DNA of 60,409 bases from Nitrospirota bacterium. Lineage in GTDB: Bacteria > Nitrospirota > Nitrospiria > SBBL01 > JAADHI01. The stretch lies in NCBI GenBank assembly GCA_029261155.1, contig JAJDBW010000053.1, forward strand, positions 1 to 60,409, given 5' to 3'. Positions within the stretch are counted from its first letter, which is position 1. Each line of letters opens with the position of its first letter. The notes beneath the pieces are model-generated. The model had not been told where the DNA came from, searched no databases, and was given only the letters and a program-made list of their open reading frames with translations. The position numbers and the translations under genes were made by a program. Below, in pieces: positions 2,143 through 50,438 of this stretch.

Positions 2143-2991
2143 TTAAGATAATTTTCTAATCAAGGTATCAAGTTCGTCCTGCCGGTGGATGGTAATACGC
2201 ATCTCGTAGGCCTTTCCTTTTTGCACGAATTTGACTCTGGTTCCCAGGGTCTCCCTGAGGTGATCTTCAACTTCGATCAGCTTCTGGTTTAGGGCCACGG
2301 GTCGATGAGGCGGCTTGGCTTCGGTCTGCGCCTTCATCCTTTGAACGGCGCGCTCCGCTTGCCGAACCGAGAGTTCCTCTCTCTTGATGGCCTCCGCCAG
2401 GACGATCCGGTCCGCCTTGGCTTCCAGGGACAAGAGCGCCTTCGCATGCCCCATCGACAGACTGCCGTGCGCGACATCGTCCCAGATTTCCGTGGGCAGC
2501 GAAAGGAGCCGAAGGAAATTCGACACCGAAGAGCGGTCGATCCCGATCCGCTTGGCGATCTCCGCCTGCGTCAGGGAAAACTCAGCGATTAATTTTTCGT
2601 AGGCCTTCGCTTTCTCAAGCGGGTTTAGGTCCTCCCGCTGCAGGTTCTCGATAACAGCCCATTCCATTAAGCCCTGGTCATCGATCTCCTTCACAATCGC
2701 CGGAATCTTCGAAAGGCCCGCATGCTTGGCCGCACGCCACCGACGTTCCCCCGAGATCAGTTCGAAATTCTTATCCGGGTCTTTCCGGACAATAATAGGC
2801 TGGATCAGGCCATGCTCTGTAATCGATTCGGCGAGTTTTTCGATCGCCTCTTGGTTGAAGATCTCTCTGGGTTGATACCGGTTAGGGATGATCCTCTCTA
2901 TATCGAGGTCGATCAAGCCCTTTTCTCGGATCCCTTCCGGCGGGACCAGCGCGGACAATCCCAAGCCTTTTCCTAATGCTCCCCGTTTCAT
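2143..2991 (-). CDS. parB: ParB/Spo0J-family partition protein (orphan copy)
   Basis: A 282-residue protein of typical chromosomal ParB/Noc length. It starts with the KGLGLSAL box (8-15) and carries the ParB N-terminal CTP-binding/clamp domain with GERRWR (81-86) and ENLQREDLNP (115-124). A helix-turn-helix follows (about 140-162, TQAEIAKRIGIDRSSVSNFL), then a C-terminal dimerisation region. ParB binds parS, spreads as a CTP-dependent clamp and stimulates ParA. No parA adjoins it on its own strand; the parA-parB pair lies 1 kb away on the opposite strand, making this a second ParB. It may recognise the palindromes at 3251-3818 or classical parS elsewhere. Codon use and domain order look intact. 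Confidence 0.92.
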   Translation of the reverse strand: MKRGALGKGLGLSALVPPEGIREKGLIDLDIERIIPNRYQPREIFNQEAIEKLAESITEHGLIQPIIVRKDPDKNFELISGERRWRAAKHAGLSKIPAIVKEIDDQGLMEWAVIENLQREDLNPLEKAKAYEKLIAEFSLTQAEIAKRIGIDRSSVSNFLRLLSLPTEIWDDVAHGSLSMGHAKALLSLEAKADRIVLAEAIKREELSVRQAERAVQRMKAQTEAKPPHRPVALNQKLIEVEDHLRETLGTRVKFVQKGKAYEMRITIHRQDELDTLIRKLS

Positions 2992-3250
2992 AGAATGGGC
3001 CTTACCAAATCCATTGTGGGCTTTGTTTGCATATCATTTTTCCTAACGGCCAATTGTTCCAGGTGAAGTTACCCATTCTCCAATCCTATGTCAATAAGCA
3101 GCTCTGGATCCCCGAGGCAGGGGATAGAAGGCACACAATAGAGGGACATGATTTCTTCCTCTTTATTGGGCTTTCAAGTCGAAGCTGGATCCAGGGTCAC
3201 GAAGTATAGCGTTTCGTCATTCGCACTGGAATCAGTTTATCCTTTTCAAT

Positions 3251-3270
3251 GGTGTGGGACGTCCCACACC
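3251..3270. promoter_or_regulatory. parS-like palindrome 1
   Basis: Perfect 20-bp palindrome GGTGTGGGACGTCCCACACC. The core TGTGGGA-CG-TCCCACA shares the TGT ends, ACA ends and CG centre of the classical ParB site but differs in the inner arms. Likely a centromere site for one of the two ParB proteins. Confidence 0.65.
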
Positions 3271-3462
3271 TGACAGCGGCATCCAAATGCATCCTTGAAA
3301 GCGACAGGGAGAAAAAGAATTCAATGCCCCGCTGAATCCCGACTGGTAATTAGGCAGTGAGGTCCTGGAGGAAACTTCGCCTGAATCGAAACGTAATCTA
3401 TTTAAACACTTTCCTAAAGGGTCCGCACTAAAGCCCTCCCTTAGGCATCCTTTCCTGTAAGC

Positions 3463-3478
3463 TGTGGGACATCCCACA
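3463..3478. promoter_or_regulatory. parS-like palindrome 2
   Basis: TGTGGGA-CA-TCCCACA: the same 7-bp arms as site 1 with a CA instead of CG centre and without the outer GG/CC extension. Confidence 0.6.
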
Positions 3479-3595
3479 TCCCGACGGTCCTGCCTTCCAA
3501 CTGCCCTATCTGACATGCCCAGGGAGCATCAACCGCGGCAATAAATGAGGCTATACAAGAGGCGATTCAAGCGATCGGAATCCTACCCAACCAAT

Positions 3596-3613
3596 GTGTG
3601 GGACGTCCCACAC
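3596..3613. promoter_or_regulatory. parS-like palindrome 3
   Basis: Perfect 18-bp palindrome GTGTGGGACGTCCCACAC with the CG centre of site 1; it starts the second duplicated block. Confidence 0.65.
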
Positions 3614-3798
3614 CTGACGGCGGTTTCCAAATACAAGGTCGAAAGGGAAGGAGGAAAAACATGTCCCTTTGAATCCCGACTAGCAAACAGGGGATCCGGC
3701 CATGGAGGGAAGATCGCAGGGAATGAAGCCTTGATTAATAAAAATACATTCCTAAAAGGTCCGACCCAAGACCCTCGAAGAGTCATCCATTCAAGCAA

Positions 3799-3818
3799 GG
3801 TGTGGGACATCCCACACC
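3799..3818. promoter_or_regulatory. parS-like palindrome 4
   Basis: GGTGTGGGA-CA-TCCCACACC, with 9-bp perfect arms and the CA centre of site 2; it ends the second block, 76 bp upstream of the parA promoter. Confidence 0.65.
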
Positions 3819-3893
3819 CCCATTTAATCGCCTCATGAAAAAATACTGTGATATAAAGGGATAATGCCTCTGTTCCTAACGTTATTTATTTCC

Positions 3894-3922
3894 TTGACAT
3901 ATCATATCTCCTCTGGTATGTA
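3894..3922 (+). promoter_or_regulatory. Sigma70-like promoter of parA-parB
   Basis: TTGACA at 3894-3899, a 17-nt spacer, then TATGTA at 3917-3922. Transcription would begin near 3929, about 40 nt before the parA ATG. The nearby palindromes and the helix-turn-helix on ParA suggest autoregulation. Confidence 0.6.
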
Positions 3923-3970
3923 GGTAAAGCTATTGTTTGTCTATGTTTTACTTACACCCTGGGTTTACTA

Positions 3971-4999
3971 ATGGAAGCACCGAATTATACACATAATTAT
4001 ACGATGAATCGCCAAGAATTTTCCGAATTACTCGGCGTCTCGCAAAGCTTAGTGATCAAGTGGGAGAAGGAGGGACTGATCCCTAATCACATCCCTTGGG
4101 GGAAGACTCACCGCCGTCGATACAATATACAACATGTCCTAGAAGCCCGAAAGCGCTACCGACCCCTCCCCAAGCATGCGCCCCAGACCCTCCTTTTTTG
4201 GCTGTTAAAAGGGGGTGTCGGAAAGACCACCCTCAGCTTCAATCTCGCAGGGGCGTTTTCAAGGATCGGATATCGCGTCTTGGCCATCGATCTGGACGGT
4301 CAATCCCATCTAACTACCTGTTTTGGAATCCCCTCCGCCGACCAGGATCGCCTCAACACCCTTTATAACATTTTCTATGGGGAAGACAAAGACAAAGCAA
4401 CGCTCCAAGAAACTTTGATCAAACTCTCTCCAACTCTGGACCTCATTCCGGCCTCCTTAGACACCGCCGCCATCGACTTATTCCTCTCCTCCGAAACCAC
4501 TATCGAAAGGAAGCTTTATAGTCTAAAAAACCTGATCGACTCTGTCAAAGGGGATTACGATTACATCTTCATCGACGCCCCACCGAATATCAATCTCCTC
4601 AACATTAATGCCTTTATTGCCTCTGACCAGCTCATCGCACCCATGCTGACGGATTTTTTATCCCATCACAGCCTATCGCTTCTCTATGACACTATTGAGG
4701 CATTAAAGCAGACATTTAAGGATCTTGACGTAGAACTCCCTAAGATTAAACTGCTCGCAAACAATTTCGATATAAGAAATAATATTTGCCAGGAATCTCT
4801 CGGACGGTTGAAAACCGGAGAATACGCACCTCAACTTTTAGAGACAGTCGTCAGTCGCAGTACCGTCCTAACGGAATCAGCAAAAAATATGCAACCGGTC
4901 TTCACTTTCGCCCAAAATAGTGCGGGAGCAAGAGACATTCTTGCCCTAACCAAAGAGATGATCGGTGTGTTTGCCAAGGAGAGAACCGATGGCACATGA
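3971..4999 (+). CDS. parA: ParA-family partition ATPase with N-terminal MerR-like helix-turn-helix
   Basis: A 342-residue protein. Residues about 13-60 form a MerR-like DNA-binding domain (EFSELLGVSQSLVIKWEKEG, then HRRRYN). The deviant Walker A of ParA/MinD ATPases, KGGVGKTT (80-87), and the A' motif AIDLDGQ (105-111) follow, with IDAPP as the Walker B region. ParA moves ParB-bound plasmid on the nucleoid; versions with an N-terminal DNA-binding domain usually also repress their own operon. The start at 3971 has no clear ribosome binding site; an ATG at 4004 is an alternative. It overlaps parB by 11 bp, so the two are co-translated. The centromere-like sites lie upstream, not downstream as in P1-type systems. 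Confidence 0.93.
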   Translation: MEAPNYTHNYTMNRQEFSELLGVSQSLVIKWEKEGLIPNHIPWGKTHRRRYNIQHVLEARKRYRPLPKHAPQTLLFWLLKGGVGKTTLSFNLAGAFSRIGYRVLAIDLDGQSHLTTCFGIPSADQDRLNTLYNIFYGEDKDKATLQETLIKLSPTLDLIPASLDTAAIDLFLSSETTIERKLYSLKNLIDSVKGDYDYIFIDAPPNINLLNINAFIASDQLIAPMLTDFLSHHSLSLLYDTIEALKQTFKDLDVELPKIKLLANNFDIRNNICQESLGRLKTGEYAPQLLETVVSRSTVLTESAKNMQPVFTFAQNSAGARDILALTKEMIGVFAKERTDGT

Positions 5000-5930
5000 C
5001 AAGGGTCACCCTCCAGATCGTAAGATCAAAAAGGCCGTAGGAACGGGATGGGACGCCCTCGATAAGAAAGACAAGCAACGTCCCCGATCTTGGAATATCG
5101 ACATTCCTCAAAAGAACACATCGACTCTCATCGAGGAAGCACTGGGTTCCTACCAAGATATTCCCATCCGCAAGATTCAACCAGACCCGAAACAACCTAG
5201 ACGGATCTTCAACCAAAAATCAATTCTGGACCTTGCTCAATCGATCTCCGATCCAGACGTCGGCCTCATCGAGCCTATCGTCGTCCGACCGATCACACCA
5301 GCGGGCTCTTACCAGCTCATCGCCGGAGAACGACGCTGGCGGGCCTGCCAGTCTCTCAATCATGAGACTATAAAGGCCATTATTCTGGATGTCACTCCGG
5401 AACAGGCTTACAAGATCTCCGTCATCGAAAACATTAACCGGGAAAACCTTAATCCCATAGAAAGAGCTCTCGCTTTCAAGGAACTGCTCAATAAAAATAT
5501 CTTTAAAAATCAGACTGAAATGGCCAATGAATTGGGTATAACCCGAACCGTACTCGTGAAATCGATCAGACTCCTTGAGCGCCTCAGCGAAGCGGCGGTC
5601 GAAATCTACTTTGCCCATGTCGATTTCGTGTCCGAGGGTCACCTGCATGCCGTCATGCGTGCCCCCCTCGCCGAACAGAAAACCATTATCGGAAAAATAA
5701 AAAACGAGACCTGGACAGTTCAACAACTGAGAGATTACATCTCTCGCACTTATTTCCCAACTCAGCGCTCAAACAATATCCACCTCAAGGAAAAACGTGA
5801 CGACTGGTTCGATCTGGACATTCAAGTTCGCCCCAACATGAGCAAACTGGACATTCAGGAAGTATTAAAAACATTAAAGAACACAATAACGAAGCTCAAT
5901 AAATTGGCGAAGGAAAAAGAAACAACATAA
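4989..5930 (+). CDS. parB: ParB-family plasmid partition protein
   Basis: A 313-residue protein from the ATG at 4989, chosen because AAGGAGAG stands just upstream; an earlier in-frame start would sit deeper in parA. After a variable basic N-terminus (1-55) comes the ParB clamp domain, with GERRWR (113-118) and ENINRENLNP (147-156). A helix-turn-helix (about 175-197, TEMANELGITRTVLVKSIRL) and a lysine-rich C-terminus follow. It should bind the palindromes upstream of parA and load the partition complex. It is clearly different in sequence from the orphan ParB at 2143-2991, so the two probably have different DNA specificities. Its end lies 471 bp before the replication gene. Confidence 0.92.
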   Translation: MAHDKGHPPDRKIKKAVGTGWDALDKKDKQRPRSWNIDIPQKNTSTLIEEALGSYQDIPIRKIQPDPKQPRRIFNQKSILDLAQSISDPDVGLIEPIVVRPITPAGSYQLIAGERRWRACQSLNHETIKAIILDVTPEQAYKISVIENINRENLNPIERALAFKELLNKNIFKNQTEMANELGITRTVLVKSIRLLERLSEAAVEIYFAHVDFVSEGHLHAVMRAPLAEQKTIIGKIKNETWTVQQLRDYISRTYFPTQRSNNIHLKEKRDDWFDLDIQVRPNMSKLDIQEVLKTLKNTITKLNKLAKEKETT

Positions 5931-5970: not shown

Positions 5971-6020
5971 AGAGTAGTTGGGAGGAAGCTCAATCTAACA
6001 ATAGGGGAGTTGAAAGGAAA
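5971..6020 (+). repeat. Outlying iteron copies
   Basis: Two copies related to the main iteron array: a degenerate one with GTAGTTGGGAGGAAG near 5974-5988 and a good one, GGGGAGTTGAAAGGAA, at 6004-6019. They stand 160 bp or more before the main array and may act as incompatibility or copy-control sites. Confidence 0.5.
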
Positions 6021-6163
6021 AATTAAAGAGAAAACCGGGAGACATCCAGGGTTATTCTATTAACCCAGATGGCCCAATGCGAGACGAAGACATTGAGAAA
6101 CCATATTTTCCTTCCTATCTCAGCATTAAGGCAAGACCGAAAGGGATAGGACTTCCAGGGATG

Positions 6164-6290
6164 AAGGAGTTGAAAGGAAGGCCAGGGGAGTTGAAAGGAA
6201 GCTATAGAGGGGTTGAAAGGAAGACGGAGGGGAGTTGAAAGGAAGCCATAGAGGGGCTGAAAGGAAGCGCTAGGGGAGTTGGAAGGAACA
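6164..6290 (+). repeat. Iteron array, six copies at about 22-bp period (oriV core)
   Basis: Six direct repeats of the core GGGGAGTTGAAAGGAAG. The TTG (or CTG) step falls at 6170, 6191, 6213, 6235, 6257 and 6279, so spacing is 21, 22, 22, 22 and 22 bp, two helical turns, as in iteron-controlled plasmid origins. Copies 3 and 5 vary at the GAGTTG step (GGGTTG, GGGCTG). The array is directly upstream of the initiator gene, the usual place for Rep-binding iterons. Confidence 0.85.
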
Positions 6291-6401
6291 AAAGTCTTGC
6301 AACTAATTGAAATATATAAGCTTAATTCGGCCTATAATACTTATAATAAATCTAATTTTAAATAGCATAAATATTCTATCAAAAATAACAGGGATGCCTT
6401 G
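6291..6401. other. AT-rich segment between iterons and rep
   Basis: About 110 bp strikingly rich in A and T, lying between the iterons and the rep start. Position and composition fit the DNA-unwinding element of an iteron-type origin and the rep promoter. I found no unambiguous DnaA box. Confidence 0.5.
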
Positions 6402-7514
6402 ATGAACAAATTATCGAAAATGGCAGAACCAAAACAACTCAAAGGAAAAGTAGAATGCAACTTTGAAGAGTTTCCCTATTTCATCCCCTCCACCAAAAAT
6501 CTAAAAAATCAGAAGGAAATCATATTTTCAAGGAAGGTCAGTAACTCGAAAGGGGAGACCTTGCACCAAGAATGGATTGTTCGCGCCGAACATGGCAATC
6601 ATCTTCCCGGAAGTTTCGAGGCCGACGTTAAACGCGCGCTCGACCAGCTCATTTTCGAGACCGGATACGAAGCTGTATCCCAAAGCGGATCAATTAAATT
6701 CTCCCTCTACCAAATTGCCGACATCCTCGGCTTGGATCACGGTGGCTGGACCTGGCGACGGATACGGGAAGCTCTCGAGCGGATGAAAACCACCAATATT
6801 CACTCCAAACATTCCTTCTACATCAAAGGCAAAGACGCCTATGTCGACGATATTTTCACCTTCTTGGAACAGGTCCGTTTCATTCGACTCGTCGAAGGAA
6901 AAAGAACGCGACACGCCACCTGTGAAGTCAGGCTCTCTAAGTATGTCCTGGAGAGCCTGAAAAACCACTACATCAAACCATTCGACTTTGGATTCTATTG
7001 GTCCCTTAATGACCCCATTCCTAAACGTCTCTATTCACTTTTTGACAAACGGGGTTACAAATCCTCGAAAATAACCTACGACCTTATCGAACTTGGCCGG
7101 ACTATTCCCTTAACCTCCCGCCCTCCCTCTAAAATAAAACAGGGAATCCTCCCTGGCCTCAACATCTTAAAAAACAGGGGCTACCTCAAAGACTTCGAAT
7201 TCTCAAAATCGAAGCAAGGTGCTGACCTCCTCACCGTTGTTCTCAAAAAAGAAAATGAGGTCGACCCCGAAGTCAGAGAAATCGCAAACGCCCTATACGA
7301 AACCATGGTCCGCTACCTCGGAAAAAACGAAACCGCCGATGCCCAATACTGGAAAATTGCAGAAACCATTCCCTCCGACCTCATCTACCGCGCCATCTCC
7401 GAGGTGCGGGAAGAAAAGAGAGAGGGGACAGTCCGATCCCCCATCGGCCTATTCATGACCAAAATCAATCGTTATGCCGAAGAAGCCAACCTTGTAGCAA
7501 AGACAACCAAATAA
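6402..7514 (+). CDS. rep: Plasmid replication initiator protein (RepA/RPA type)
   Basis: A 370-residue protein beginning at ATG 6402; a TTG one codon upstream is also in frame, and CAGGGA lies about 8 nt before. Its middle resembles the replication initiator protein A family of broad-host plasmids: a winged-helix-like segment KFSLYQIADILGLDHGGWTWRRIREALERMKTT near residues 105-140, and PFDFGFYWSLNDPIPKRLYSLFDKRGY near 196-220. Such proteins bind iterons and open the origin with host DnaA and helicase. The gene directly follows the iteron array, which supports the call strongly. No frame damage is seen, so the origin is probably functional. Confidence 0.85.
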   Translation: MNKLSKMAEPKQLKGKVECNFEEFPYFIPSTKNLKNQKEIIFSRKVSNSKGETLHQEWIVRAEHGNHLPGSFEADVKRALDQLIFETGYEAVSQSGSIKFSLYQIADILGLDHGGWTWRRIREALERMKTTNIHSKHSFYIKGKDAYVDDIFTFLEQVRFIRLVEGKRTRHATCEVRLSKYVLESLKNHYIKPFDFGFYWSLNDPIPKRLYSLFDKRGYKSSKITYDLIELGRTIPLTSRPPSKIKQGILPGLNILKNRGYLKDFEFSKSKQGADLLTVVLKKENEVDPEVREIANALYETMVRYLGKNETADAQYWKIAETIPSDLIYRAISEVREEKREGTVRSPIGLFMTKINRYAEEANLVAKTTK

Positions 7515-7735: not shown

Positions 7736-8716
7736 CTATTCTACCTCCGACAGATCCGGCCCCGTTCCGCCAGCCACCTTGATAAAAGACTCCGCTCCGT
7801 CAGCAATCCGCCGCACCATGTGGTCATACTTCATCGTCGTGTTCATGGATTTATGCCGCATCATGTCCTGAACGGCCTTAAAATCTGCACCATTCGTTAA
7901 GGCCTCCGTCGCGGCCGTATGCCTCAGGGAATAGGCCGTCAGCCGATTGCGTTTGATCCCCGCCTGTTTCAGATATTTTGTAATAATGTATTGAATGCCC
8001 CGGACCGAAAGCCGCGCGCCCTTGACCGGTTTTTCCGCCACAAAAAGCGGCGCCTTTTCTGAGACCAGCCCCCGGAGTCGCTTATACCGTTCCATGGCCG
8101 GAATGAGCGCCGGCACAATCACCACAAAACTATCGGCCGCTTCGCGTCCTTTCCCCTGGACGTACAGAATCCCGCCTTCTCCCTTCCTGACAAAATCTTC
8201 CACGTTCAGCCGATGGAGCTCCACCAGGCGGACGGCCGTCTGAAGGATTAAGGAGACCAACAAATAATCTCTCAATTTGGCCGGCGTCCGAATTGGAATT
8301 TGAGCGACCAGCTTTTCTTTTTCTTCCGGATCCAAGGCCTCTTTTCGGTATTCCTGCGACAGCTTGGGCAAGGGCACCTTTTTCGTCGGGTCTTCCGGCA
8401 GGATATGCTCTTCCACGGCCCAGGCGGAGAAAGTCCTGAGTACCGACAGCTGACGTTGCACGTAGGCCGGTGATCGCCTGTAGAGATTGAGATGACGGAC
8501 ATATTGTTTTATGAGGAGATTATTTAAGGCGGGGAGGGACCGATCCTGTCGGTAGGCCTCGAATTGCTTGAGGGCCTGATCGTAGGTCTTGTGCGTCGCC
8601 TCCGCCCAATGGAGATCGTGCGCGAGGAGGAAACCCGTGATATAGGGCGCGAGCGCGACCCCTTTTTTTATTTGATTTAAGTCTAGTAGGGCTTCGCTTG
8701 CCTGATCTCGTTTCAT
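7736..8716 (-). CDS. Xer-like tyrosine site-specific recombinase
   Basis: About 326 residues from ATG 8716, preferred over a GTG at 8734 because AGAAGG stands 9 nt before the ATG. The N-terminal SAM-like core-binding domain (about 25-125, with THKTYDQALKQFEAY) precedes the catalytic domain. Visible active-site elements are Arg in TAVRLVEL, Lys in QGKGR, the box-II SLRHTAAT (first His of the usual HxLR is Tyr here), RHKSMNTT and the nucleophile Tyr in MKYDHM. Such enzymes resolve plasmid multimers or integrate elements. The dif-like inverted repeat lies about 160 bp upstream of its start, so a dedicated resolution system is likely. Confidence 0.88.
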   Translation of the reverse strand: MKRDQASEALLDLNQIKKGVALAPYITGFLLAHDLHWAEATHKTYDQALKQFEAYRQDRSLPALNNLLIKQYVRHLNLYRRSPAYVQRQLSVLRTFSAWAVEEHILPEDPTKKVPLPKLSQEYRKEALDPEEKEKLVAQIPIRTPAKLRDYLLVSLILQTAVRLVELHRLNVEDFVRKGEGGILYVQGKGREAADSFVVIVPALIPAMERYKRLRGLVSEKAPLFVAEKPVKGARLSVRGIQYIITKYLKQAGIKRNRLTAYSLRHTAATEALTNGADFKAVQDMMRHKSMNTTMKYDHMVRRIADGAESFIKVAGGTGPDLSEVE

Positions 8717-8876
8717 AGGCTGTGTCCTTCTCACTTCCTTCTAAAAAGCCCTCTGCGGCCGGGTATAAGAGCTTCTCTTCTCTTAATATGGCCGCAAATG
8801 GCCTTAAATCACTTAAAACCCTTCTAAACGACGTTCTTTCAGGTCTTGACTGGCTTTTGGGTGCGATCACATCAAA

Positions 8877-8910
8877 TATACTACGCGGAATGGACCTTCC
8901 GCGCAGTATA
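8877..8910. other. dif/res-like recombination site
   Basis: Inverted repeat with 14-bp arms TATACTACGCGGAA and TTCCGCGCAGTATA (one mismatch) around a 6-bp centre TGGACC. Xer-type sites have the same plan: two recombinase-binding arms flanking a 6-8 bp overlap region. It lies between the recombinase gene and the divergent winged-helix/scpB operon, and may also act as an operator for either. Confidence 0.6.
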
Positions 8911-8913
8911 GCC

Positions 8914-8942
8914 TTGACTTTGGCTGTTTTCAACCTTAAAAT
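8914..8942 (+). promoter_or_regulatory. Sigma70-like promoter of the winged-helix/scpB operon
   Basis: TTGACT (8914-8919), a 17-nt spacer and TAAAAT (8937-8942), starting four bases after the recombination-site-like inverted repeat. A protein bound to that repeat would cover the -35 box, so recombinase binding could couple to expression of the downstream genes. Confidence 0.5.
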
Positions 8943-9008
8943 GCATCCATCAATTATTGATAGATAGGAGAGGGAGCACAAAAAATCTCCGCCTTGAGGC
9001 CGGACACG

Positions 9009-9464
9009 ATGGATTTAGACCCAATGATTCCAGTGCTTTCAGACCTGCGGCCCTCCGAGCAGGTCGTCTTGATCCAGCTCTATTTGCACAAGGTCAAGGA
9101 CGAGACCTACGCCTCCCAAAGCCACCTCATCTCCTGGACAGGGATTAAATCGGCCAACACGATTAAGACCGCGATCAAGGGTCTGATCCAGCGCGGTCTG
9201 GTCAAATGCCTGAAAGCGGGGCAACAAAACGCCCCGGCGCTCTACCGGCTTTGCCTGGAAGAGCCGGACAAACCGATGCTTCCAGAAGCAGTACACGAAG
9301 TATCTCCCTTAAACAGCGATAATCGGCTTCGCCTGGCGGCCCTCAAAAAAGGGTTTTCCCCGGCAAAATGGCAGGAGATTAGAAGAGAAGCCCAAGCCTC
9401 GGGAATAACGGAAGACGCCTTCATCCTCCAGACCTGTTTCGGGCCGGAGCGGATCCGTGGCTAA
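9009..9464 (+). CDS. Winged-helix DNA-binding protein, plasmid-type
   Basis: A 151-residue protein from ATG 9009, with GAGG about 10 nt upstream. Residues about 10-75 look like a winged helix: LRPSEQVVLIQLYLHK, then SQSHLISWTGIKSANTIKTAIKGLIQRGLVK, which is helix-turn-helix plus a wing. The rest has a predicted helical tail without known motifs. The next gene, an scpB homologue, starts inside its last codons (overlap 9457-9464), so the two are translationally coupled and probably work together. It may be an autorepressor, or a DNA adaptor for the ScpB-like protein. No precise family is recognised. Confidence 0.7.
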   Translation: MDLDPMIPVLSDLRPSEQVVLIQLYLHKVKDETYASQSHLISWTGIKSANTIKTAIKGLIQRGLVKCLKAGQQNAPALYRLCLEEPDKPMLPEAVHEVSPLNSDNRLRLAALKKGFSPAKWQEIRREAQASGITEDAFILQTCFGPERIRG

Positions 9465-9969
9465 TGTCTTTATGAAAGAGGTCCTTGAAAATATCTTTTT
9501 GACCGCCACGGAGCCGGTCACGATGGCCCATCTCATGGAAACCTTTGAGATCACTTCTCCGGAAGGCCGCGCGGGCCTGATGGCGGAGCTCAAAGGACTG
9601 GAAGCGGAATACAACAAACGCGGGCTTGCGCTTCACCAGGTCGGGGGCGGTTATCTCCTTAAGACGCAGGCGAAGTACGCGCGCTGGGTCCGGCGATACC
9701 AGTCGAATGCGCCGGTCCGCCTGACAGACGAGGGCCGAATCACTTTGGCCATCGTCGCCTACAAACAGCCGATTAAACGATCGGAGATTGAAGACATTCG
9801 CGGGGTGGAGTGTGAAAGCGTGCTTCAAACCCTCAGGCAGGTGGGATTGATTCAGGTGATGGGAGAACTGTCGGGGGCCTATCTGTACGGCACCACCCAA
9901 AAGTTTTTAAGTCACTTCAATCTAAACCAGCTCTCGGAGCTGCCCCCTCTCGCCTCGCCGATGAAATAA
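9457..9969 (+). CDS. scpB: ScpB-like segregation and condensation protein
   Basis: A 170-residue protein read from GTG 9457, overlapping the previous stop; ATG 9472 is an alternative. It matches ScpB along its length: ENIFLTATEPVTMAHLMETF at the start, GGGYLLKTQAKYARWVRRY near 65-85, the signature ITLAIVAYKQPIKRSEIEDI near 105-125, and the closing LYGTTQKFLSHF. ScpB is a double winged-helix protein that binds the kleisin ScpA in SMC condensin. It is usually chromosomal beside scpA; here neither scpA nor smc is present. It may join the host SMC complex or act alone in replicon segregation. Confidence 0.85.
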   Translation: MANVFMKEVLENIFLTATEPVTMAHLMETFEITSPEGRAGLMAELKGLEAEYNKRGLALHQVGGGYLLKTQAKYARWVRRYQSNAPVRLTDEGRITLAIVAYKQPIKRSEIEDIRGVECESVLQTLRQVGLIQVMGELSGAYLYGTTQKFLSHFNLNQLSELPPLASPMK

Positions 9970-10102: not shown

Positions 10103-10122
10103 CATTTACAAAGGGGGTTATG

Positions 10123-10374
10123 ATGCCTAGAAATACAAGCGTGACCTTAGGGGAGCATTTCGAAGGCTTCATCGCTGAAAAAATCGAACAAGGCCGCTTT
10201 GAATCGAAAAGCGAAGCGGTCCGCGCTGGGATGCGTCTCCTGGAAGAACATGAAAACAAAGTTGAAGCCTTAAACCGCGCCTTGATTGAAGGAGAAGAAA
10301 GCGGAGATGCTGGCCTCTTGGATATGAAAGCGATCCGCAAAAAGGCCAAACAGCAAGCGGGATTGAAACCTTAA
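10123..10374 (+). CDS. parD: ParD-like type II antitoxin
   Basis: An 83-residue protein from ATG 10123; an ATG one codon earlier is closer to the AAGGGGG box than usual. The N-terminus PRNTSVTLGEHFEGFIAEKIEQGRFESKSEAVRAGMRLLEE is the ribbon-helix-helix fold of the ParD/CopG group, which dimerises and binds the operator. The C-terminal half is the flexible toxin-binding tail. The toxin gene starts 2 bp after its stop, and the palindromic operator lies just upstream. It should neutralise ParE and repress the operon. Confidence 0.92.
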   Translation: MPRNTSVTLGEHFEGFIAEKIEQGRFESKSEAVRAGMRLLEEHENKVEALNRALIEGEESGDAGLLDMKAIRKKAKQQAGLKP

Positions 10375-10376
10375 GA

Positions 10377-10670
10377 ATGCTTAAGGTCCATAAGACCCGA
10401 GCGGCCGAAAATGACTTGATCGGTATTTGGCTTTATTCTTTTGCACAGTGGGGTGAGACCCAAGCCGATTTGTATCTTGACGAATTGGAATATGGGATAA
10501 ATGCGCTAAGGGAAAATCCTGAAATGGGAAGCCTTTACGAATATCGTGAAGGGTATCGAAAACTTCCAGTCAAAAGCCATATTGTTTTTTATCGCCTGAA
10601 AGTAAAAAGGATTGAAATCGTCCGCGTCCTACATAAGCGAATGGACATAGGGAAAAACCTTACACCCTGA
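10377..10670 (+). CDS. parE: ParE/RelE-superfamily toxin
   Basis: A 97-residue protein of standard ParE size: an N-terminal helix pair (KTRAAENDLIGIWLYSFAQWGETQADLYLDEL), a loop with NPEMGSLYEYREGYRKLPV, then the strand HIVFYRL and the terminal VRVLHKRMD. ParE toxins inhibit DNA gyrase; related RelE proteins cleave mRNA, and ParE is favoured by the paired ParD-type antitoxin. The ATG at 10377 follows the antitoxin stop (10372-10374) after two bases. The module would kill plasmid-free segregants and so stabilise the replicon. Both genes look intact. Confidence 0.92.
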   Translation: MLKVHKTRAAENDLIGIWLYSFAQWGETQADLYLDELEYGINALRENPEMGSLYEYREGYRKLPVKSHIVFYRLKVKRIEIVRVLHKRMDIGKNLTP

Positions 10671-10812: not shown

Positions 10813-13800
10813 ATGTTCTTGCCCGTCATCCATTTCCTCAGAAGGCGGAATATTCCTCCTACCAATGCTCCCGACTCGCCACAAATAAGGCAACTAGCCG
10901 TAACATCTGCTTTGAGGTCCGCCCTTTCAGTCCTTCTTTTCAGCTTGTTCGTTCTTCTAGGTTTTGTTCCGCAAATAGTATTTTCCTCGCCTCCATCGCC
11001 TGAAACCCAAAAAATCCACAACACGAAGGTCCGTTTTAATAAGGGCCTACTCTCTGTTCAGACCGAAGGTGTCGCGCTTGGGGTTTTGATGGAAGAGGTC
11101 AGCCGGAAGGCCGATATCGCGGTTTCGATCAATGCGAGCCTGAAAGATGAGAAAGTGACTGTTCAGTTTGAGGATGTGCCGTTTGAATCCGGTCTAAAGA
11201 CAATCCTCCGAAGTGCGGGGGTTGTGAATAATGCACTGGTGTACCAGCAGAGCAAGGAGCCTGGGAAAGTCGGTCAGTGGTTGATTGAGAAGATTTTTCT
11301 GAAACAAAAAGGGACTTCAAAGAGTGCGCCGATCCAGTCAAAGGGTTCAGCCAACAAACCGAAGGGCATCACCTCCTTCGAGAAGGAACCTTTCTTTGAT
11401 AAAAAACTGGATCGCTTTGTGGAGGTGGTCAAAGCAGAGGTGATGGTCCGTTTTAAAAAGGGGCTGACGGACGAGGAGATTGAAAAGTTTCTGAAGGAAC
11501 TCGATGCTACTGTTATCCGTAAGAATCAACTGAAGGTCTACCGGTTGAAAATTCCCGCTGATGTCTCCGTCTCGGAATTTATTGAACAACATGGCAAAAA
11601 TGAAATCCTCGAACTGATTGAACCCAATTTCATTGCGTCGATACTTTCGACACAAACGATTCCACCTAATGATCCATCACTGGCTCCTCAATGGGCGATC
11701 ACTAAGATCCAGGCCGAAAAGGCTTGGGAGGTCACAACCGGCAGCCCGGAGGTCGTCGTTGCCATTCTCGATACGGGAATCGAGATGACACACCAAGACC
11801 TTGTTAATAAGGTTCTCCCCGGTAGGGATATCGTCAATAACGATCCTGATCCCTCCGATGATCATGGCCATGGCACCCACGTTGCCGGGATTGTGGCGGC
11901 CGAGGCGAATAATCGGCTAGGTATCGCTGGAATTTCTTGGGACAGTACTCTGCTGCCGGTGAAGGTGATCACCTCTTCAGGAGAAGGTGCCTATTCCGAT
12001 GTGATGGATGGGATTCTTTATGCGGTGGACAAGGACGCTCGTGTGCTCAACTTCAGTATCGGAGGCTATTCCTATTCGCAGGTCTTGGGCGATGCCGTGG
12101 AATATGCCCATACAAAAGGCGCGGTGATTGTGGCCGCCGGGGGCAATGAGGACAGCAGCGATCCCATCTATCCGGCGGCCTATCCGAATGTCATCGGTGT
12201 TTCGGCCACCGATCCTGCCGATCAGATCTGGACTCCGTCCAATCAGGGGACTTACATCAAGCTATCGGCTCCGGGCATCGATATCCTGAGCACCGCTTTG
12301 GGTAACGTCTATGTCAGTGCCACTGGCACTTCGGCTTCTACGGCTCATGTCTCCGGTGTTGCTTCCTTGATCCTTTCAAAGAATCCAGACTTCTCCAATA
12401 CGCAGGTGGAGCAGATTCTGTATCAGACGGCAGATGACCTTGGGGAGGCTGGGTTAGACCCGGAGTTTGGCTATGGCCGTCTTAATGCGGCCAAGGCATT
12501 GGAGGTGGCAAGTATTGAAGTACATGATTTAGCCGTCACCCACATCCGCGTCGAACCGCAATCCTTCAAAATCGGAGAGCCTACTCAGATCATTGTCACT
12601 GTACAAAACCAAGGCACGTTTGTGGAGGATGATCTATCAGTCACAACCTTCATGAACGATGGGCAAATTGAAGAGCCAAAGCAGATAGAAATAATCAAAC
12701 CGGGAGAGAGTCTTAATGTCGGGTTTGCCTGGGTGGCGAGTATTAATGCCGGGGAAGAAATAGTTCTTTCAATTAAGAGCGATGTCAGTGTGATTAAGGG
12801 AGAAACAGATCTTACGGACAATGTCAAAACTAAAGTATTTATAGCCAGTCAGATAAATGGTTTAATCATTATTAAGCATAAATCCGAGCCCGATATGCAG
12901 ACACATCAATATCTGGTTGGAGAAGCGGCGAAGATTTGGCCTGGAGGTTATGTAACAGATTCGAACCATCATGAGATCTGGGAATACATTGGAGAGAAAG
13001 TAGAATATGATTTGAATGACGCGGCTGTATTGTCCGACACTCATGTTACGACCTATGGCGGCCGGTTTAATGGTGAATATGTAAAAAGCCCGTTTAATCC
13101 GCGGACACTTCCTTGCTCAGATCCACGCCACATTTCGACTATTTGTTCCGACAGCAATGACCATGCTGTTCCATATTCCGAGCTTAACAAAAAAACGTTT
13201 TCCATTGGAACTGGGACCAATGATTTAGGAAGGTGTGGTGAAAGAGGACCAGAGAACCTATCTGCTGGCTCCTGCACGAATGGCGGTGATGACATCATAG
13301 AAGGTGTTATGGAGGAAGATTATTTTGCCATTGTAAACCTTGATGAGCATAGTGATCAATTTTTCGGTGGCGGTTTGGACGCAAACGGTGCTTGCATATA
13401 CCTAAATCATCTATGGAACCGCCCAAATCATAACGGCACTGGAGACACAGGATTAACAGGGGTAGCTAGATTACCATCATGTGGACAATCAACTGGTTCC
13501 CCCCATACGCCTTATCAAATGGCGCAAGAATATTGGAATATGTCAATCACCAAATATAAAGAAGGAAACAAAGGCTTGGCCTACTATTATTTGGGTAGGG
13601 TGGCCCATTTCCTCACAGATATGACTGTTCCAGCACATGCCCACGCGGATAATCATGGAAACGAAATAGTCGGAGGGGTAGATTCATATGAAAATTTTAT
13701 GGGGGAAAATTACACGAAATACACTTACAACTCGACACCGGAAGGGTCATGGACCTACAACGTAGGTGATATAAAATATAACGACTATGCCACCGTTACA

Positions 13801-16800
13801 ACGGGTGGTGGTTTTACTGGTTTTGGGACAGACGTAAAAAAATGGCGAGGAACCCCACAAAGTTGGGATGAAAAAACAGAGCTTTATCACCTATTTTGGT
13901 ATACCGCAGAAATCGCAGATAATTTCGATAGTGATGGGGTTGCTGGAGAGGTCTCTAACGGAATTTACCAAAAAGTAAGAACGTGCATTATTAATATATG
14001 CAACATAACTCCATGTGCGATAGGCCCATGCATTATAGAAGAAACAAATTTAAAAACCATCGGAAAAGTCCTGATGCCACTCGCGATGAAGGCTACCGCA
14101 GAGCTCTACAAACTCTTCTGGGATACAGTACAGCCTCTTACAATTACATCAAGCCTGAAACTTACACCCGAGTCAGTTCGCCAGGCTGTGGGGGCAACCC
14201 TTTCCGCCCAGTTTGTCATTACAAATACAACGCCCACACCGGTTACGGTGGCCCGGTTAACCGTAAAAGGTGTTGACCCCGACAATATTACCTCAGACTT
14301 TCCGGCGAAAACCTGCCTTACCCTGCAGCCAAATGTTCCCTATAAATACGAAGGGACCCTAAAGCTGACGAAAGCAGGCGTTTATAGCTTCGTTCCTGCA
14401 TACGAAACACCCACGACCATTCCGCAATGTCCTCTTCCGGATGGCAATTGGAATACAGATATTCCCGCAGTATCGGGCATTGTAAATGGCACCCTGTCTA
14501 TAATCGCCTCACTGGATAACACCGCTCCGGCCGTGAACATCACGGCACCTCTAAATGGAGAGACAGTGAGCGGTATACCCACAGTGGCAGCCAGTGCCAC
14601 GGATAGTATGGGTATCAGCAAAGTCGAGTTTTATTTAGACAGTGTGCGGCAGGTCATCGATTCTTCCTCCCCTTATCTTTGGTCTTGGAACACAACAGGG
14701 TTTGCGAACAAGAATTACTCTCTTTATGCCATCGCTTACGACACTGCAGGAAATCAAAAAACCAGCCCCACTCTTTCGGTAACAGTGAACAACACCATTA
14801 CGGACACAACAGCACCAAATATCTCATCCCTGTCTGCATCCGCCACCGGCACCACAGCAACGATTAGCTGGATCACGAACGAGCCTGCCAATTCGCAGTT
14901 GGAATACGGGACATCACCTTGTCCCTGCCTGTTCTTTCTCCCTGTTGATTCAATTTTTACAACAAACCATTCTATGAGACTGACAGGGCTTACGCCTTTG
15001 ACAAGGTATTACTATCGTGTTTTCAGCCGTGATGCAGCGGGGAACCGGGCCTTTTCCAACAACAATTTCTTTTCAACAAGTGCCCTGGGCAATGTTGCTC
15101 CCAGCGTCGTGGTTGGCAGACCCAATGGGGGAGAAAATTTTCCTGCAGGAAGCGTGCAAAACATACAGTGGACAGCCACCGATGATGTCGGTGTCACGTC
15201 CGTTAGTCTCTCCTATTCCACAGATGGGGGGAGCCAATGGATCGATATTCCTGGTGGGACCAATATCGACAACAGTGGCAATTTCTCGTGGACCTTGCCG
15301 GATATCGCTTCAAGCAGCGTCCGGGTTTCAGTTTCAGCCTCTGATGGAGTAATGACCGGGAGCGACGCCAGCAACGGCAATTTTTCAATTTCTCAAACCT
15401 GCTCCCTGCCACTGATCCCCACTCTTCAGAGTATTTCGGCTTCCGGTCGCAGTTATACGGTCACTTGGGGCAACGTGAGCGGTGCGAGCAGTTATATTCT
15501 GGAAGAGGATACGACATCATCTTTTGGCAGTCCTACACGACGTTCGTTGACGCAGGCCTCAATCTTTTTCAGCGAAAAACCAGCGGGCACGTACTTTTAT
15601 CGTGTCAAAGCGGTCAATAGTTGTGGAGAAAGTGCATTGTGGAGTCAGACAAAGAGCGTGTCAATCCAGTCCAATTTTGGACCTGGAGAGATTACCGCCA
15701 CTTCTCCTACTGACAATGCCATTAATCAGAACTTGACCGTCAATCTTTGCTGGTCCGCAAGCCATCCGGGAGGTGAGAGTCTCCGGTACAACGTCTACCT
15801 TACCCACTCCGATACTGAATTTTTCTTTCCGCACAATATCAAATCTTCCGGTCAGACTAGTTCTTGTTACTCTGCGGCAAACCTTCCTTACAACACACGA
15901 ATTTCATGGGGGATCGAGTCGATAGATGACACGGGGGATAGCAGGGTCAGTCCGATGTTCCACTTTAACACCCTTGCCGATAGTACGCCTCCAACGGGTT
16001 CTATCGTAATCAATAACGGTGACGAGACGAGCGACACCTACAGCGTAACCCTTCATCTCTCCGCCTCGGATACAGACTCCGGCATTCAGTATATGCGGTT
16101 TAGCAACGATGGCATTAACTGGTCCTTCTGGGTCGGCTTTGCGTCACAATATCCGTGGAACCTGGCGGATAGTCGTACCGGGGGGAAACTAAACCAAACA
16201 AGCTATACGGTTTTTGCCCAATTCCGGGATAATCAGGAAAATGAGTCCGCAACCTTCAGTGATACGATCGACAAGGTGGCCTCCATGCCCGGGAATATTC
16301 TCTTGAACGGGAAACTCTATGAGACCATCCAGGATGCGGTAGATGCCGCGCAACCTGGAGAGACAGTTTTCCTTACGGAAGGAACATACACAATTACAGG
16401 TAACAGCAAGCCCCCTCGTTATCCTTCACGTAGTGTGGGTTTGGTGATGCAACCCGGCGTGACCTTGATGGGCGCAGGAGCCGAGAAAACAACGATCATC
16501 TTGGAGGGGATCGGGCTCTGGACCCTTGTTGATGCCGATAACGCTGTCGTTGAGGGCCTAACGCTTATTAACTCCGATTCGGGTGGTGTCAGATATGCCG
16601 TTCTCCTTGAATCTGATTCGGCCAAGATTAAGAATTCAATCATCCGGGGAAGTGATGGAGGGATCGCTGTGGGCGGCGGTGTGGCCTTATCCAATCCCAC
16701 AAATGTTGAAATATCCAACAACCTGATTACAGGAAATGGCGAAGGCATCCGGGTGAACTCCGGAACGAATATATCTATACTGCACAACACCATTTCTCAC

Positions 16801-19800
16801 AATTCCAACAGCTGCGGCATCTGTCCCAACGCTTCATCGATCATCCGTAACAATATAATCTCTTTCAATGGAAACGGGATAGCCACGAATGGTGAAATGC
16901 CGACGCTTAGCCACAATAATGTTTTTGGAAATATAAACAATAACATCAGCAACAATTACCAAGGGATCCCTGATCAAACCGGTATCAATCAAAATATGTC
17001 TGCCGATCCTGGGTTTATCAATGCCACGACATCTAATTTTAGGCTGAGTTCAGGCTCCCCGGTGATCAATGCGGGTATTGATGTCGGCATTCCATTTATG
17101 GGACCAGCACCGGATATGGGGGCCTATGAGTTTGGCGGGGTGGGTACGCTTAATGTTCCTTCGAACCGGATTGATGCGGCGTTTACTGTTACGGGGCCCC
17201 AATCCTTTAGTGGAAGCGGAACCAGCACCGTGTTCGCCAATGTCCCCCTCGGTGTTTACTCGATTACCTTCAGTCCAATCGGTGGTCATTATTCCCCACC
17301 GTATCAATCACAAATAGTAATGAGCAACCAGACAGTGACATTTGATGGCACTTACAATGCCGATACGATACCCCCCTTTGGCACGGTCTCAGCCAACTAC
17401 GATGAATTTGCGACAGCGGACCCCCTGATAACTATTTCCCTGGACGTTCTGGATGACGTCGCCGGTATGGGGCCGGGAGCAGAGATGATGTTCAGCAACG
17501 ATGGCGTCGATTGGTCAACGCCTGAGCCTTATAGCTCTCTGAAAAAAGGATGGGATCTGACAGCCTTTGGCGGAGGAACCGATTCAGGGACCCGCACCGT
17601 TTTTGTCAAGGTCTCGGATGCCTTTGGCAACCTAATGACCAGTCCGATAACCGATACAATCCTCTATGTTCCGAATCGGAGCGTCCTGGAGGTCCCGACA
17701 CAATTCCCAAGCATCCAAGCGGCTGTCGATGTAGCGCTTTCCGGGGACATGGTCTATGTGCTGCCGGGAACCTATCATGAAAATGTAGTCCTCAAGGCTG
17801 GCATCCGATTACAAGGGGCGGGTCCGGGGGCCACCATATTGGAGAATATATCCACCAATAATATAACTGCAATCACCGATGCACCGGATACGGCAATTGA
17901 TGGATTTACCCTAAAGTCCCATCGGGGTAGGGCTATTAATTGTCAGAATAGGACACTGATCATATCGAATAACATGATCGAAGCACTTCGTGGAATTGAT
18001 GCCGTAAGCGGATGTAAAGCTATTATTCGCAATAACCTCATTCAGGGAAGAAGTTCCGGCTACGGAATTATTGCCTTTGGTGATCTCTCGATCATTCTGG
18101 AGAACAATACAATCGTCAGTACAGCCCCAGTTTCTGGAAGCCCTCCACCCAATGGCATTGACCTTGAAAATGGCGTACCTACAACACGAATCTTTGCCAC
18201 GAACAATATCATTGCCAACAATAGGATCGGCGTTTTAGACAACGGTTTAGGAGATCCCAACCATCAACATATTTTCTCTTCATTCAACACGTATTGGAAC
18301 AATGTGGATGGGCATCTAGTCCACAGTGCGGGGAGTGATAAGCTCCTGATGGGGCCTGGGGATACGATAGACGATCCACTTTTTACGAATCCAAACCTGG
18401 TGGATTTCAGTCTGCAGGCAGGTTCCCCAGGGATTGATCGCGGCCATCTAGAACCCAGATACAACGACACGGATGGCTCCAGAAATGATCGCGGAGCCTA
18501 TGGAGGGCAGGGAAGCAATACCCCTCCTCAGGCCGATTTTATTACGAAGCCTTCTATAGGAAATGTGGGTAGTTTGTTTGTTTTTGATGCCGGGATCTCT
18601 TTTGATAAAGAAACAGCTCCTTCAGAGCTTTGGGTCCGTTGGGACCTTGATGGAAACGGTCAATATGAAACCCCTTGGACCACTCAGAAAACCATACCGA
18701 TGCAGTTTTCAAATGTCGGGGTCTTTACCATCGGGCTTCAGGTCAGAGATAAGGGGTGGTTTTCATCAAATACCGCAAAGCAAGTTACCGTACTCAATCA
18801 GCCTCCGAACATCCCAAGCAATCCTTCACCCGCAGACAATGGTGTGAACCAACCTATCGGCAAAACATTCGCCTGGTCAGGTGGAGATCCGGATCCGCTT
18901 GATACCGTAACCTATGATCTCTACTTTGGAACAAGCACCGAGCCACCGCTCGTTTCTAACGATCAACCACTAGCCACTTACGATCCCGGTCCCTTGGCCT
19001 TCAACACCTTTTACTACTGGCGAATTGTTGCAACAGATAATTGGGGGAATTCGATTACCGGGCATATCTGGCGCTTTCTCACCTTGCCAGAACCAGCCCC
19101 TCAGCCCCCCGCCGGGTTGGCGGCAATAGTCGTGTCTGATTCACAAATTAACCTCTCATGGACCGACACCGATAAAGAGATCGGATTTAAGATCGAGAGA
19201 AAAACGGGTGAAAGTGGAACATATAGCCAAGTGGACATCGTTGATTCCGATGTCACATTTTACAACGATTCTAATCTGTCCAGTGGAGCAAACTATACCT
19301 ACCGTGTACGTTCTTATAATGGATCAGGCCATTCCGCTTATTCAAACGAAGCCAGTGCGACCACTGGTCAGCCATCCTCAGCAGACAATGACAACGACGG
19401 CCTGCCGGACAGTTTTGAGATGGCGCATGGACTCAATCCGAATGATCCGCTGGATGCCCTGAGAGATTCAGATGGTGACAGCTACACCAACCTTGAAGAA
19501 TTCTTAGGCGGCACCGATCCGCGGAATGCCGCTAGCCATCCGATCCGGCCCTTTGTAGTAGAGGCATCTCCCCACGACGGCCAGGGGATTGTAGAAGATA
19601 CAAGGCGAGTTCCGATTGACAGCTCTATAGCTATCCGAATCAAGGATGAGGATGATGGAATCGACCCGAATAGTATTCTTATGACGGTGGAGGAGGTCGG
19701 GGTTCAGAACAGTATTCGAACAAAGGCGATCAATAACGCAGGGTTCACGGATATCTGGGTGATCTACGATACAACAAATCCGGATACCGATAATGATGGA

Positions 19801-35172: not shown

Positions 35173-36942
35173 ATGCGCTTACTCAATCTCCATATCCGCA
35201 ACTTCCGAAAGATTGAAGACTTGTCCGTGATCTTTCCGAAAGGTTTGGCCGTAATTGTCGGCGAGAACAACGCCGGGAAAACGGCAATTATCGATGCTTT
35301 ACGGCTAATGCTATTTTCAAGCCGCGACTTTGAAGCCCTTCGGCTTAATGAGGATGACTTTCGCAGAGGGTCACAGAACGCACCAATCGAAATTTCCTGT
35401 ACGTTTTGTGATCTCAGCAATGCTGACGAAGTTCACTTTCAGGAGTGCCTTGTGGACATTGGCGACGGGAAGTTTCACGCTCGTCTGAATGCGCGGGCTG
35501 AATTCAATTCCACCACGCGAAGAGCCAATGTGAAAATGTGGGGCGGTGAGACAGAAGGAGGCACACTTCCATCGAACCTCTACGACCACCTGAGCTCAAT
35601 TTACCTACAACCTCTCCGTGATCCAGAGAGCGGGTTGCGCCCTGGCAGACATTCCCAGGTGTCCCGCTTGATCGATTGCCTAACGGCGGTTGATAAACGC
35701 GTCGAGTTCGAAACCATTGCACAGACCGCAAACAATCAGATTCGAGAACTTGATCCGGTTAAGAGTGCAAAAGCCGACATCGACGCCCAATTAACTTCAA
35801 TTGCCGGGGCTGAACTTGCGCAAGAGATTGAGCTCATATTCAGTGACCCCAGCTTTCATCGGATCATCGCAGGGCTTCAACCCGAGATCGATGGATTGCC
35901 TTTCGCACTAAACGGTCTGGGCTACAACAATCTAGTGTTTACGGCCGCGACGCTGGGAACCCTCCGGCGGAGCAAGAACTATTCGTTTCGTTCGATCATC
36001 GTCGAGGAGCCGGAAGCCCACCTTCATCCTCACCTGCAAGTTCTCCTTCTTCGGCATCTGGTGAATGCGGCCGAAGACACAGATGGAAATACAGTCCAGG
36101 TATTGGTAAGCACCCATTCCCCAATCTTAGCGAGCCAGGCTCCGATCGATTCGGTTATCTCCGTCCACGATTCAGCCGGGAAAGTGACGGGCGTATCCCT
36201 TTGCTCAATCGACTACGATGAGACGCTCAAGAAGAAACTTCAGAGGTTTCTCGATGCGACGCGGGCAGAGCTTTTCTTTGCTCGCCGAATCCTCATGGTC
36301 GAGGGAATTGCTGAAGCTCTTCTTCTGCCCGTGCTCGCCCGAATGGCTGGAGGAAATTTGAAAGACTCCTCCGTCACCGTTCTGAATGCTGACGGAATTA
36401 ACTTTAATGCCTTCGTTCCGCTTTTTGGAAGCGGTCGCCTAGGCCTATCGGTTGCGATTTTGACCGATGGCGATGATGTCGGTAGGACCGGAACTCCTTC
36501 AGCGACCGCAACGGGGCTAAAGGCAAAGGAAGGCGAAATACAAAATCTCCGTGTCGAATATGGAGAAATCACTTTTGAGCACGAGTTGGCGCGGTCGGCC
36601 GCCTTGCTTCCATTCATGCTCCAGGCATATCGAACACTTCGTCCCACACTCGGTGCTGTGTTGGACACTCAGATTAACGGACTCGGCACCGATTACGCAA
36701 AGGCCGATGCGTTCCTCGAAGAGTTCTTGCGGAGTAAGGCATCCAAGGGCGAGTTTGCGCAGGAATTGGCAGGCTTGTTCGAGGACTCGCTTTCCAACCC
36801 AGAGGCGGAGGCTTTCCCGGTGGACTGTGTTCCGCAGTATATTCGCGACGCCTTGGAGTTTCTTGGCGTCATAACCGTGAGCAACCCCAATGAGCCAGAC
36901 GGAGCAACTGAGGGAACAGATTCTGTCCCAGAACCCGACTGA
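35173..36942 (+). CDS. gajA: GajA-like OLD-family ATPase/TOPRIM nuclease (Gabija)
   Basis: 589 residues. The ABC-type ATPase domain has Walker A GENNAGKTAI (near 31-40), EEPEAHLHPHLQ as Walker B, and STHSP. The C-terminal TOPRIM nuclease has Glu in LMVEGIAEALLLPVLA and the DxD in LTDGDDVGR. This is the architecture of OLD nucleases and GajA. It overlaps the UvrD-like helicase gene by 53 bp, which makes Gabija the best call. In Gabija, GajA nicks DNA when nucleotide levels fall and GajB acts with it. The pair sits between hsdS and hsdR in the same direction, so it is likely co-transcribed with the restriction genes. Confidence 0.9.
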   Translation: MRLLNLHIRNFRKIEDLSVIFPKGLAVIVGENNAGKTAIIDALRLMLFSSRDFEALRLNEDDFRRGSQNAPIEISCTFCDLSNADEVHFQECLVDIGDGKFHARLNARAEFNSTTRRANVKMWGGETEGGTLPSNLYDHLSSIYLQPLRDPESGLRPGRHSQVSRLIDCLTAVDKRVEFETIAQTANNQIRELDPVKSAKADIDAQLTSIAGAELAQEIELIFSDPSFHRIIAGLQPEIDGLPFALNGLGYNNLVFTAATLGTLRRSKNYSFRSIIVEEPEAHLHPHLQVLLLRHLVNAAEDTDGNTVQVLVSTHSPILASQAPIDSVISVHDSAGKVTGVSLCSIDYDETLKKKLQRFLDATRAELFFARRILMVEGIAEALLLPVLARMAGGNLKDSSVTVLNADGINFNAFVPLFGSGRLGLSVAILTDGDDVGRTGTPSATATGLKAKEGEIQNLRVEYGEITFEHELARSAALLPFMLQAYRTLRPTLGAVLDTQINGLGTDYAKADAFLEEFLRSKASKGEFAQELAGLFEDSLSNPEAEAFPVDCVPQYIRDALEFLGVITVSNPNEPDGATEGTDSVPEPD

Positions 36943-38647: not shown

Positions 38648-38652
38648 CGATC

Positions 38653-41574: not shown

Positions 41575-41578
41575 TGCG

Positions 41579-50351: not shown

Positions 50352-50438
50352 GGGGCGGATTGTAAATGAACGGAGTCAGCATGCAGTCGCGGCTTCGGGG
50401 GGTTGGGAGCCGATAACTGTGATGGAGCACAACCCATA

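Follow-up and report, generated by a model that had tools for sequence, protein, structure and literature searches.

A Probable New Sequence Variant of parS on a Plasmid of the Nitrospirota

Four copies of the palindrome TGTGGGACRTCCCACA, at positions 3253, 3463, 3597 and 3801 in front of a parA-parB operon, appear from their sequence context to be the parS (centromere) of a plasmid ParABS partition system and a new sequence variant of this element, a reading to which we assign a probability of about 0.92. As such, they are almost certainly the docking sites through which the plasmid would be shared out at cell division. The palindromes had been read as a variant parS in the original prediction, and this remains the best supported explanation because the motif accompanies orthologous parA-parB-repA operons on each of four replicons and is essentially absent elsewhere, while the other DNA-binding proteins of the region, ParA and RepA, have candidate sites of their own. 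Readings of the palindromes as ParA operators, RepA sites, recombinase sites or targets of an orphan ParB were also weighed and judged weaker.

Palindromic Sites and Gene Neighborhood

The window, i.e., the whole stretch of 60,409 nucleotides that was analysed, is an entire contig of its assembly; relatives of that assembly include, in its own family, a Nitrospirota MAG and, in its order, replicons of Ca. Manganitrophus type. The 60 kb contig is a probable plasmid; no circular overlap was found between the window ends. Site 1 (GGTGTGGGACGTCCCACACC, 3251..3270, core 3253-3268) has a CG center and is an exact 20-bp palindrome, the motif of which is conserved upstream of orthologous parAB, and site 3 (GTGTGGGACGTCCCACAC, 3596..3613, core 3597-3612), also with a CG center, is a perfect 18-bp palindrome. 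Sites 2 (3463..3478) and 4 (3801..3816) share the sequence TGTGGGACATCCCACA, with a CA center and exact arms; none of the four is assigned a strand. The arms TGTGGGA/TCCCACA are exact in all four sites and the centers run CG, CA, CG, CA, precisely as first described. Outside these sites, no place in the window lies within two mismatches of the palindrome. A genome-wide search for the palindrome had been advised along with the original prediction, and in the 90-contig, 3.56 Mb host assembly it found no exact copy beyond the four. In 50 random windows drawn from a dinucleotide model, no 7-2-7 palindrome of any sequence was seen more than once, compared with the four occurrences of this one in the window.

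Each CG-CA pair was described as part of a block repeated at about 340 bp, and the alignment bears this out. The first copy of the block (3247..3482, unstranded, sites 1 and 2) and the second (3592..3820, unstranded, sites 3 and 4) are 71% identical over 237 bp (E = 4e-27), with an offset of 344 bp between the CG sites and 338 bp between the CA sites. The DNA between the palindromes is duplicated as well (65% identity; alignment score 112 versus a shuffle maximum of -4), and both CG-CA pairs form part of a tandemly duplicated unit of about 230 bp whose copies have diverged. The earlier term “duplicated centromere” is apt for the repeat unit but not for the centromere, which is one and not two; site number and spacing vary between plasmids.

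The sites occupy the gap between an orphan parB (2143..2991, minus strand), located upstream of them on the opposite strand, and a parA (3971..4999, plus strand)/parB (4965..5930, plus strand) operon, an arrangement that had been correctly noted. The parA gene encodes a 342-aa Walker-type ATPase (KGGVGKTT motif; Pfam AAA_31 1e-38) with an N-terminal MerR-like helix-turn-helix (MerR 3e-5). The operon parB, which overlaps parA and has its likely start at ATG 4989, encodes a protein with ParB_N (4e-26) and HTH_ParB (1e-11) domains that scores 130 bits against TIGR00180 (cut-off 58) and is the predicted palindrome ligand. It is followed by repA (6399..7514, plus strand), encoding a replication initiator protein A of the RPA family (Pfam RPA 1e-13; orthologues 78% and 63% identical). 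A ParA-type Walker ATPase, a ParB with ParB_N (CTPase fold) and HTH_ParB, and repeated cis sites near the operon and conserved with it are thus all present, as in type I HTH-type ParABS systems.

Beyond repA, the window carries genes for a XerC/D-like recombinase, an HTH_36 protein and ScpB, an SMC-condensin subunit (7736-9969). This module recurs near the par-rep genes at L046 2801-5004, L061 2945-5169 and L075 4438-6617, and is 40-45% conserved among these replicons. Close to the partition region there is also a ParD/ParE toxin-antitoxin pair (10120-10670), followed by a gene for a 3358-aa predicted surface or secreted protein (10813-20889, plus strand), the open reading frame of which suggests a subtilisin-like domain and then many repeats. 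The Gabija (GajA, GajB) and Septu (PtuA, PtuB) defense genes at 35173-44040 flank a gene for a type I restriction enzyme, and a second type I restriction-modification set lies at 50403-58591 (methyltransferase 50403-52745, restriction enzyme 55577-58591).

Distribution of the Motif and Candidate Sites of ParA and RepA

Orthologous parA-parB-repA operons are found on three other replicons: G003:C21 (JAJDBV010000028, Nitrospirota OFTM249), G014:C9, and CP114559.1, the complete circular 199-kb plasmid of Ca. Manganitrophus sp. GAC2. The window ParA is 69-75% identical to its counterparts, and the operon ParB is 67, 53, and 53% identical, respectively. Related plasmids had been proposed as a second place to look for the palindrome, and it is indeed present upstream of parA on all three replicons, with three sites on G003:C21, the contig of which starts 3 bp before its first site, and five each on G014:C9 and CP114559.1. 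Across plasmids there are 3-5 sites per replicon, 85-455 bp apart. Including the window sites and a single one on the contig G017:C2, 18 sites were collected, of which 15 match TGTGGGANNTCCCACA exactly and three have one mismatch; the CG center is found in 14. On CP114559.1, no palindrome with at most one mismatch occurs outside the par region; in G014, a single additional one-mismatch site lies on a different contig. Chance-level matches aside, the parts of the window gap that align with the other three intergenic regions are limited to the palindromes and to the parA promoter/operator, which argues that the motif is under constraint.

Among 396 Nitrospirota genomes, exact copies of the motif are confined to G000 and G003. 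The same two genomes, and no others, encode the orthologous RepA; a further two in this sample have a distant RPA relative of RepA (24-25%) and lack the motif. G014 and G017 lie outside the sample and came from a search of the order. The comparative evidence comprises four or five replicons of one order, with G014 and CP114559 96% identical in the par region. When a plasmid collection was searched with the operon ParB, only CP114559.1 stood out (52.5% over 92%), and the other matches listed were at or below 40%. IMG/VR viral contigs contained no relative of the operon ParB; two single-site IMG/VR matches to GTGTGGGACNTCCCACAC, without recognisable par genes on their flanks, were taken as chance.

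A natural exchange of partition genes is seen on G017:C2, a plasmid-like contig of 238 kb that matches CP114559.1 at 90% identity on one side of the par-rep region and at 98.6% on the other. In place of the CP114559.1 segment containing sites 2-5, parA, parB, and repA, it carries a divergent repA, 42% identical to window repA, and a parA-parB pair that is unrelated and lies on the opposite strand. Site 1, just outside the exchanged segment, is kept beside the xer-like/HTH/scpB genes, though the cognate parB is gone. The exchange points to the palindromes as part of the par-rep cassette; the site left behind may be a relic, or it could be a retained site. Beside the unrelated parA-parB are four direct repeats around TTGGCATAGCAAGGAA (L075 7603-8099), a different repeat family and a candidate that is probably the centromere of the incoming system.

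That the one remaining G017 site adjoins the integrase-HTH_36-ScpB module, which also accompanies the sites in the window, G014 and CP114559, could be taken to mean that the palindromes serve the nearby XerC/D-like recombinase or the HTH/ScpB proteins, e.g., in dimer resolution. However, the window module lies ~4 kb away, beyond repA, no relative of the integrase, HTH protein or ScpB was found on the G003 contig, itself broken 3 bp before site 1, and an array of four or five functional recombination sites would lose the intervening DNA. A role of the palindromes as sites of these proteins is highly improbable.

ParA has a plausible binding site elsewhere in the gap. The predicted parA promoter (3894..3922, plus strand) consists of TTGACA (3894), 17 bp, and TATGTA (3917), with TTGAC and TATGTAGGTA invariant in four replicons. 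Its -10 region is overlapped by an inverted repeat, TGTAGGTAAA/TTTACTTACA (3919..3956, unstranded), both arms of which are conserved in four replicons and which is found as an inverted repeat in L046 too; this repeat is a candidate for the natural operator of the ParA MerR-like domain. Because the palindromes also lie upstream of parA and ParA possesses such a helix-turn-helix, they might themselves be operators of this domain or of another regulator of the par operon instead of a centromere. Yet they are situated ~80 bp (nearest) to ~640 bp (farthest) upstream of the predicted -35 box, at spacings that vary between plasmids, and the separate inverted repeat over the -10 region makes the better ParA operator, leaving this alternative very unlikely.

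Iterons directly before the rep gene are the usual layout of an iteron origin. Candidate RepA iterons, repeats of approximately GGGGAGTTGAAAGGAAG in mostly 22-bp steps, extend over 5971..6291 (plus strand), and this stretch is the probable oriV. RepA orthologues co-occur with the palindromes in four of four replicons, as would be expected if the palindromes were binding sites of this replication initiator, but candidate 22-bp iterons of the same repeat class precede repA directly in all four, with the palindromes on the far side of parAB; the probability that RepA uses the palindromes is close to nil. Since ParA and RepA both have their own conserved candidate repeats, the palindromes are assigned to the operon ParB, an assignment made partly by elimination, as the co-occurrence of RepA and ParA with the sites is no less faithful than that of ParB.

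Recognition Regions of the Two ParB Proteins

Residues K171, S172, N178, and R204 of the Caulobacter protein make DNA contacts common to ParB and Noc (PMC7383237). At these positions (Caulobacter numbering), the plasmid operon ParBs carry I/V/L171, T/H172, K178, and H204, while they keep Q162, R173, and G201. In chromosomal ParBs of the same order, R173 and N178 are retained, together with I171, D172 (GID) and often K204; some of these proteins are thus also unlike Caulobacter at 171, 172, and 204. Because some chromosomal ParBs have changed at these three positions as well, N178K is the clearest of the four differences. The TGT ends and ACGT center shared by the sites, their changed inner triplet and the partly kept contact set of the protein fit a shifted specificity. 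The operon ParB does not match Noc: at the Noc specificity positions it has R173, S179, E184, and G201 rather than Q173, K179, K184, and R201, and its Noc model score of 158 falls below the cut-off of 315. The CTP-binding motifs GERR(W/F)RA and ENxxRE are present, and the Q of GLLQP is E in all four plasmid ParBs.

The orphan ParB is of a different type. Chromosomal parS takes the form TGTTCCACGTGGAACA in this order. It occurs in 17 of 18 genomes, the host genome among them with one copy, on contig C42. The recognition helix of the orphan ParB, GIDRSSVSNFLRLL, is identical to that of the chromosomal ParB of contig C22 and several relatives, and the protein has the LGKGL N-terminus, the ParA contact motif of chromosomal ParBs (PMC13245405). 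From this chromosomal-type helix and N-terminus, recognition of the chromosomal site rather than the palindromes is predicted for the orphan ParB; it probably binds chromosomal parS, which leaves the operon ParB as the one window ParB expected to bind the palindromes. The orphan gene adjoins the sites in the window, as it would if its product were their main ligand, but on G014:C9 and CP114559.1 the sites have no gene of this kind beside them (the G003 contig stops at this point), and its helix is that of chromosomal ParBs from genomes with TGTTCCACGTGGAACA, so that this assignment is hardly tenable. With up to 63% identity to ParBs of a sister genus versus 54% to the chromosomal ParB of the host genome, the orphan ParB was probably acquired.

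Proposed Mechanism and Comparison With Known Systems

We infer that the operon ParB (4989-5930) would bind the 16-20 bp sites as a dimer, with one helix-turn-helix per TGTGGGAC half-site, and, by analogy with other HTH-type ParBs, would form a closed CTP clamp that spreads along neighboring DNA. The ParA ATPase would move the ParB-loaded region over the nucleoid, such that each daughter cell receives the plasmid. With its MerR-like N-terminal domain bound at 3919-3956, ParA may also act as a repressor of the operon that encodes it, and the 22-bp iterons that separate parB from repA would be where RepA starts replication.

The chromosomal parS of ParB/Spo0J (TGTTTCACGTGAAACA; TGTTCCACGTGGAACA in this order) resembles the new sites in being a 16-bp palindrome with TGT/ACA ends and a cognate ParB composed of ParB_N and HTH_ParB, and its ACGT center occurs in most of them. 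The original prediction had pointed to the shared TGT and ACA ends and CG center; the likeness holds and is larger than was claimed, 10 of 16 positions for the CG-centered sites, which differ from TGTTTCACGTGAAACA at the other six and share with it the frame TGT-N3-ACGT-N3-ACA. No place in the window lies within two mismatches of canonical parS (TGTTNCACGTGNAACA). The inner triplet is GGG in the new sites versus TTC or TCC in chromosomal parS, the DNA-contact residues of the ParBs differ, most clearly by N178K, and the new sites, unlike chromosomal parS, are clustered upstream of plasmid parA-parB-repA. Another palindrome of the ParB/Noc family, the Noc binding site (NBS), departs from the parS sequence at positions 1 and 6 (numbering of PMC7383237), which are read via Q173/K179/K184/R201, and sets a precedent for a few residues switching specificity (PMC7383237). 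In contrast to Noc, the operon ParB keeps R173 and G201 and other positions change.

Among plasmid centromeres, sopC of the F plasmid (parSF = TGGGACCACGGTCCCA; PMC8357417) is likewise built from copies of a 16-bp palindrome with an arm of the TGGGAC type, although this arm is two bases farther from the center than in the new sites; the operon ParB has clear sequence matches to ParBs of solved structure, SopB not among them. The nearest precedent is parABS1/parABS2 of the Streptomyces plasmid SCP1, in which two plasmid HTH-type ParBs with divergent recognition helices have their own inverted-repeat parS around the operon (PMC13245405). SCP1 parS are 13-bp and 19-bp repeats for which binding was shown by ChIP-seq and BLI, whereas the present case is built from sequence. 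A search of mostly open-access literature found neither the 16-mer nor GGGACGTCCC together with ParB, and no plasmid partition study in the phylum Nitrospirota; the parS motif of these plasmids seems to be undescribed.

A more speculative extension, which we consider doubtful, is that ParB and TGTGGGACGTCCCACA form a separate specificity class orthogonal to the host chromosomal parS, with the GGG triplet read by the reprogrammed I/V/L171, T/H172, K178, and H204, and that the new parS, which the plasmids pair with their own ScpB, may load SMC complexes. The plasmid-borne ScpB is worth a look. An orthogonal ParB/parS pair may be of use for DNA labelling, and the palindrome may provide a simple marker for this parA-parB-repA plasmid family. 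If the assignment is right, a natural ParB-parS specificity would be added to the few that are defined, and its kept frame and center, swapped triplet and changed contact positions would make it possible to test directly how the specificity of ParBs changes in evolution outside the switch from ParB to Noc.
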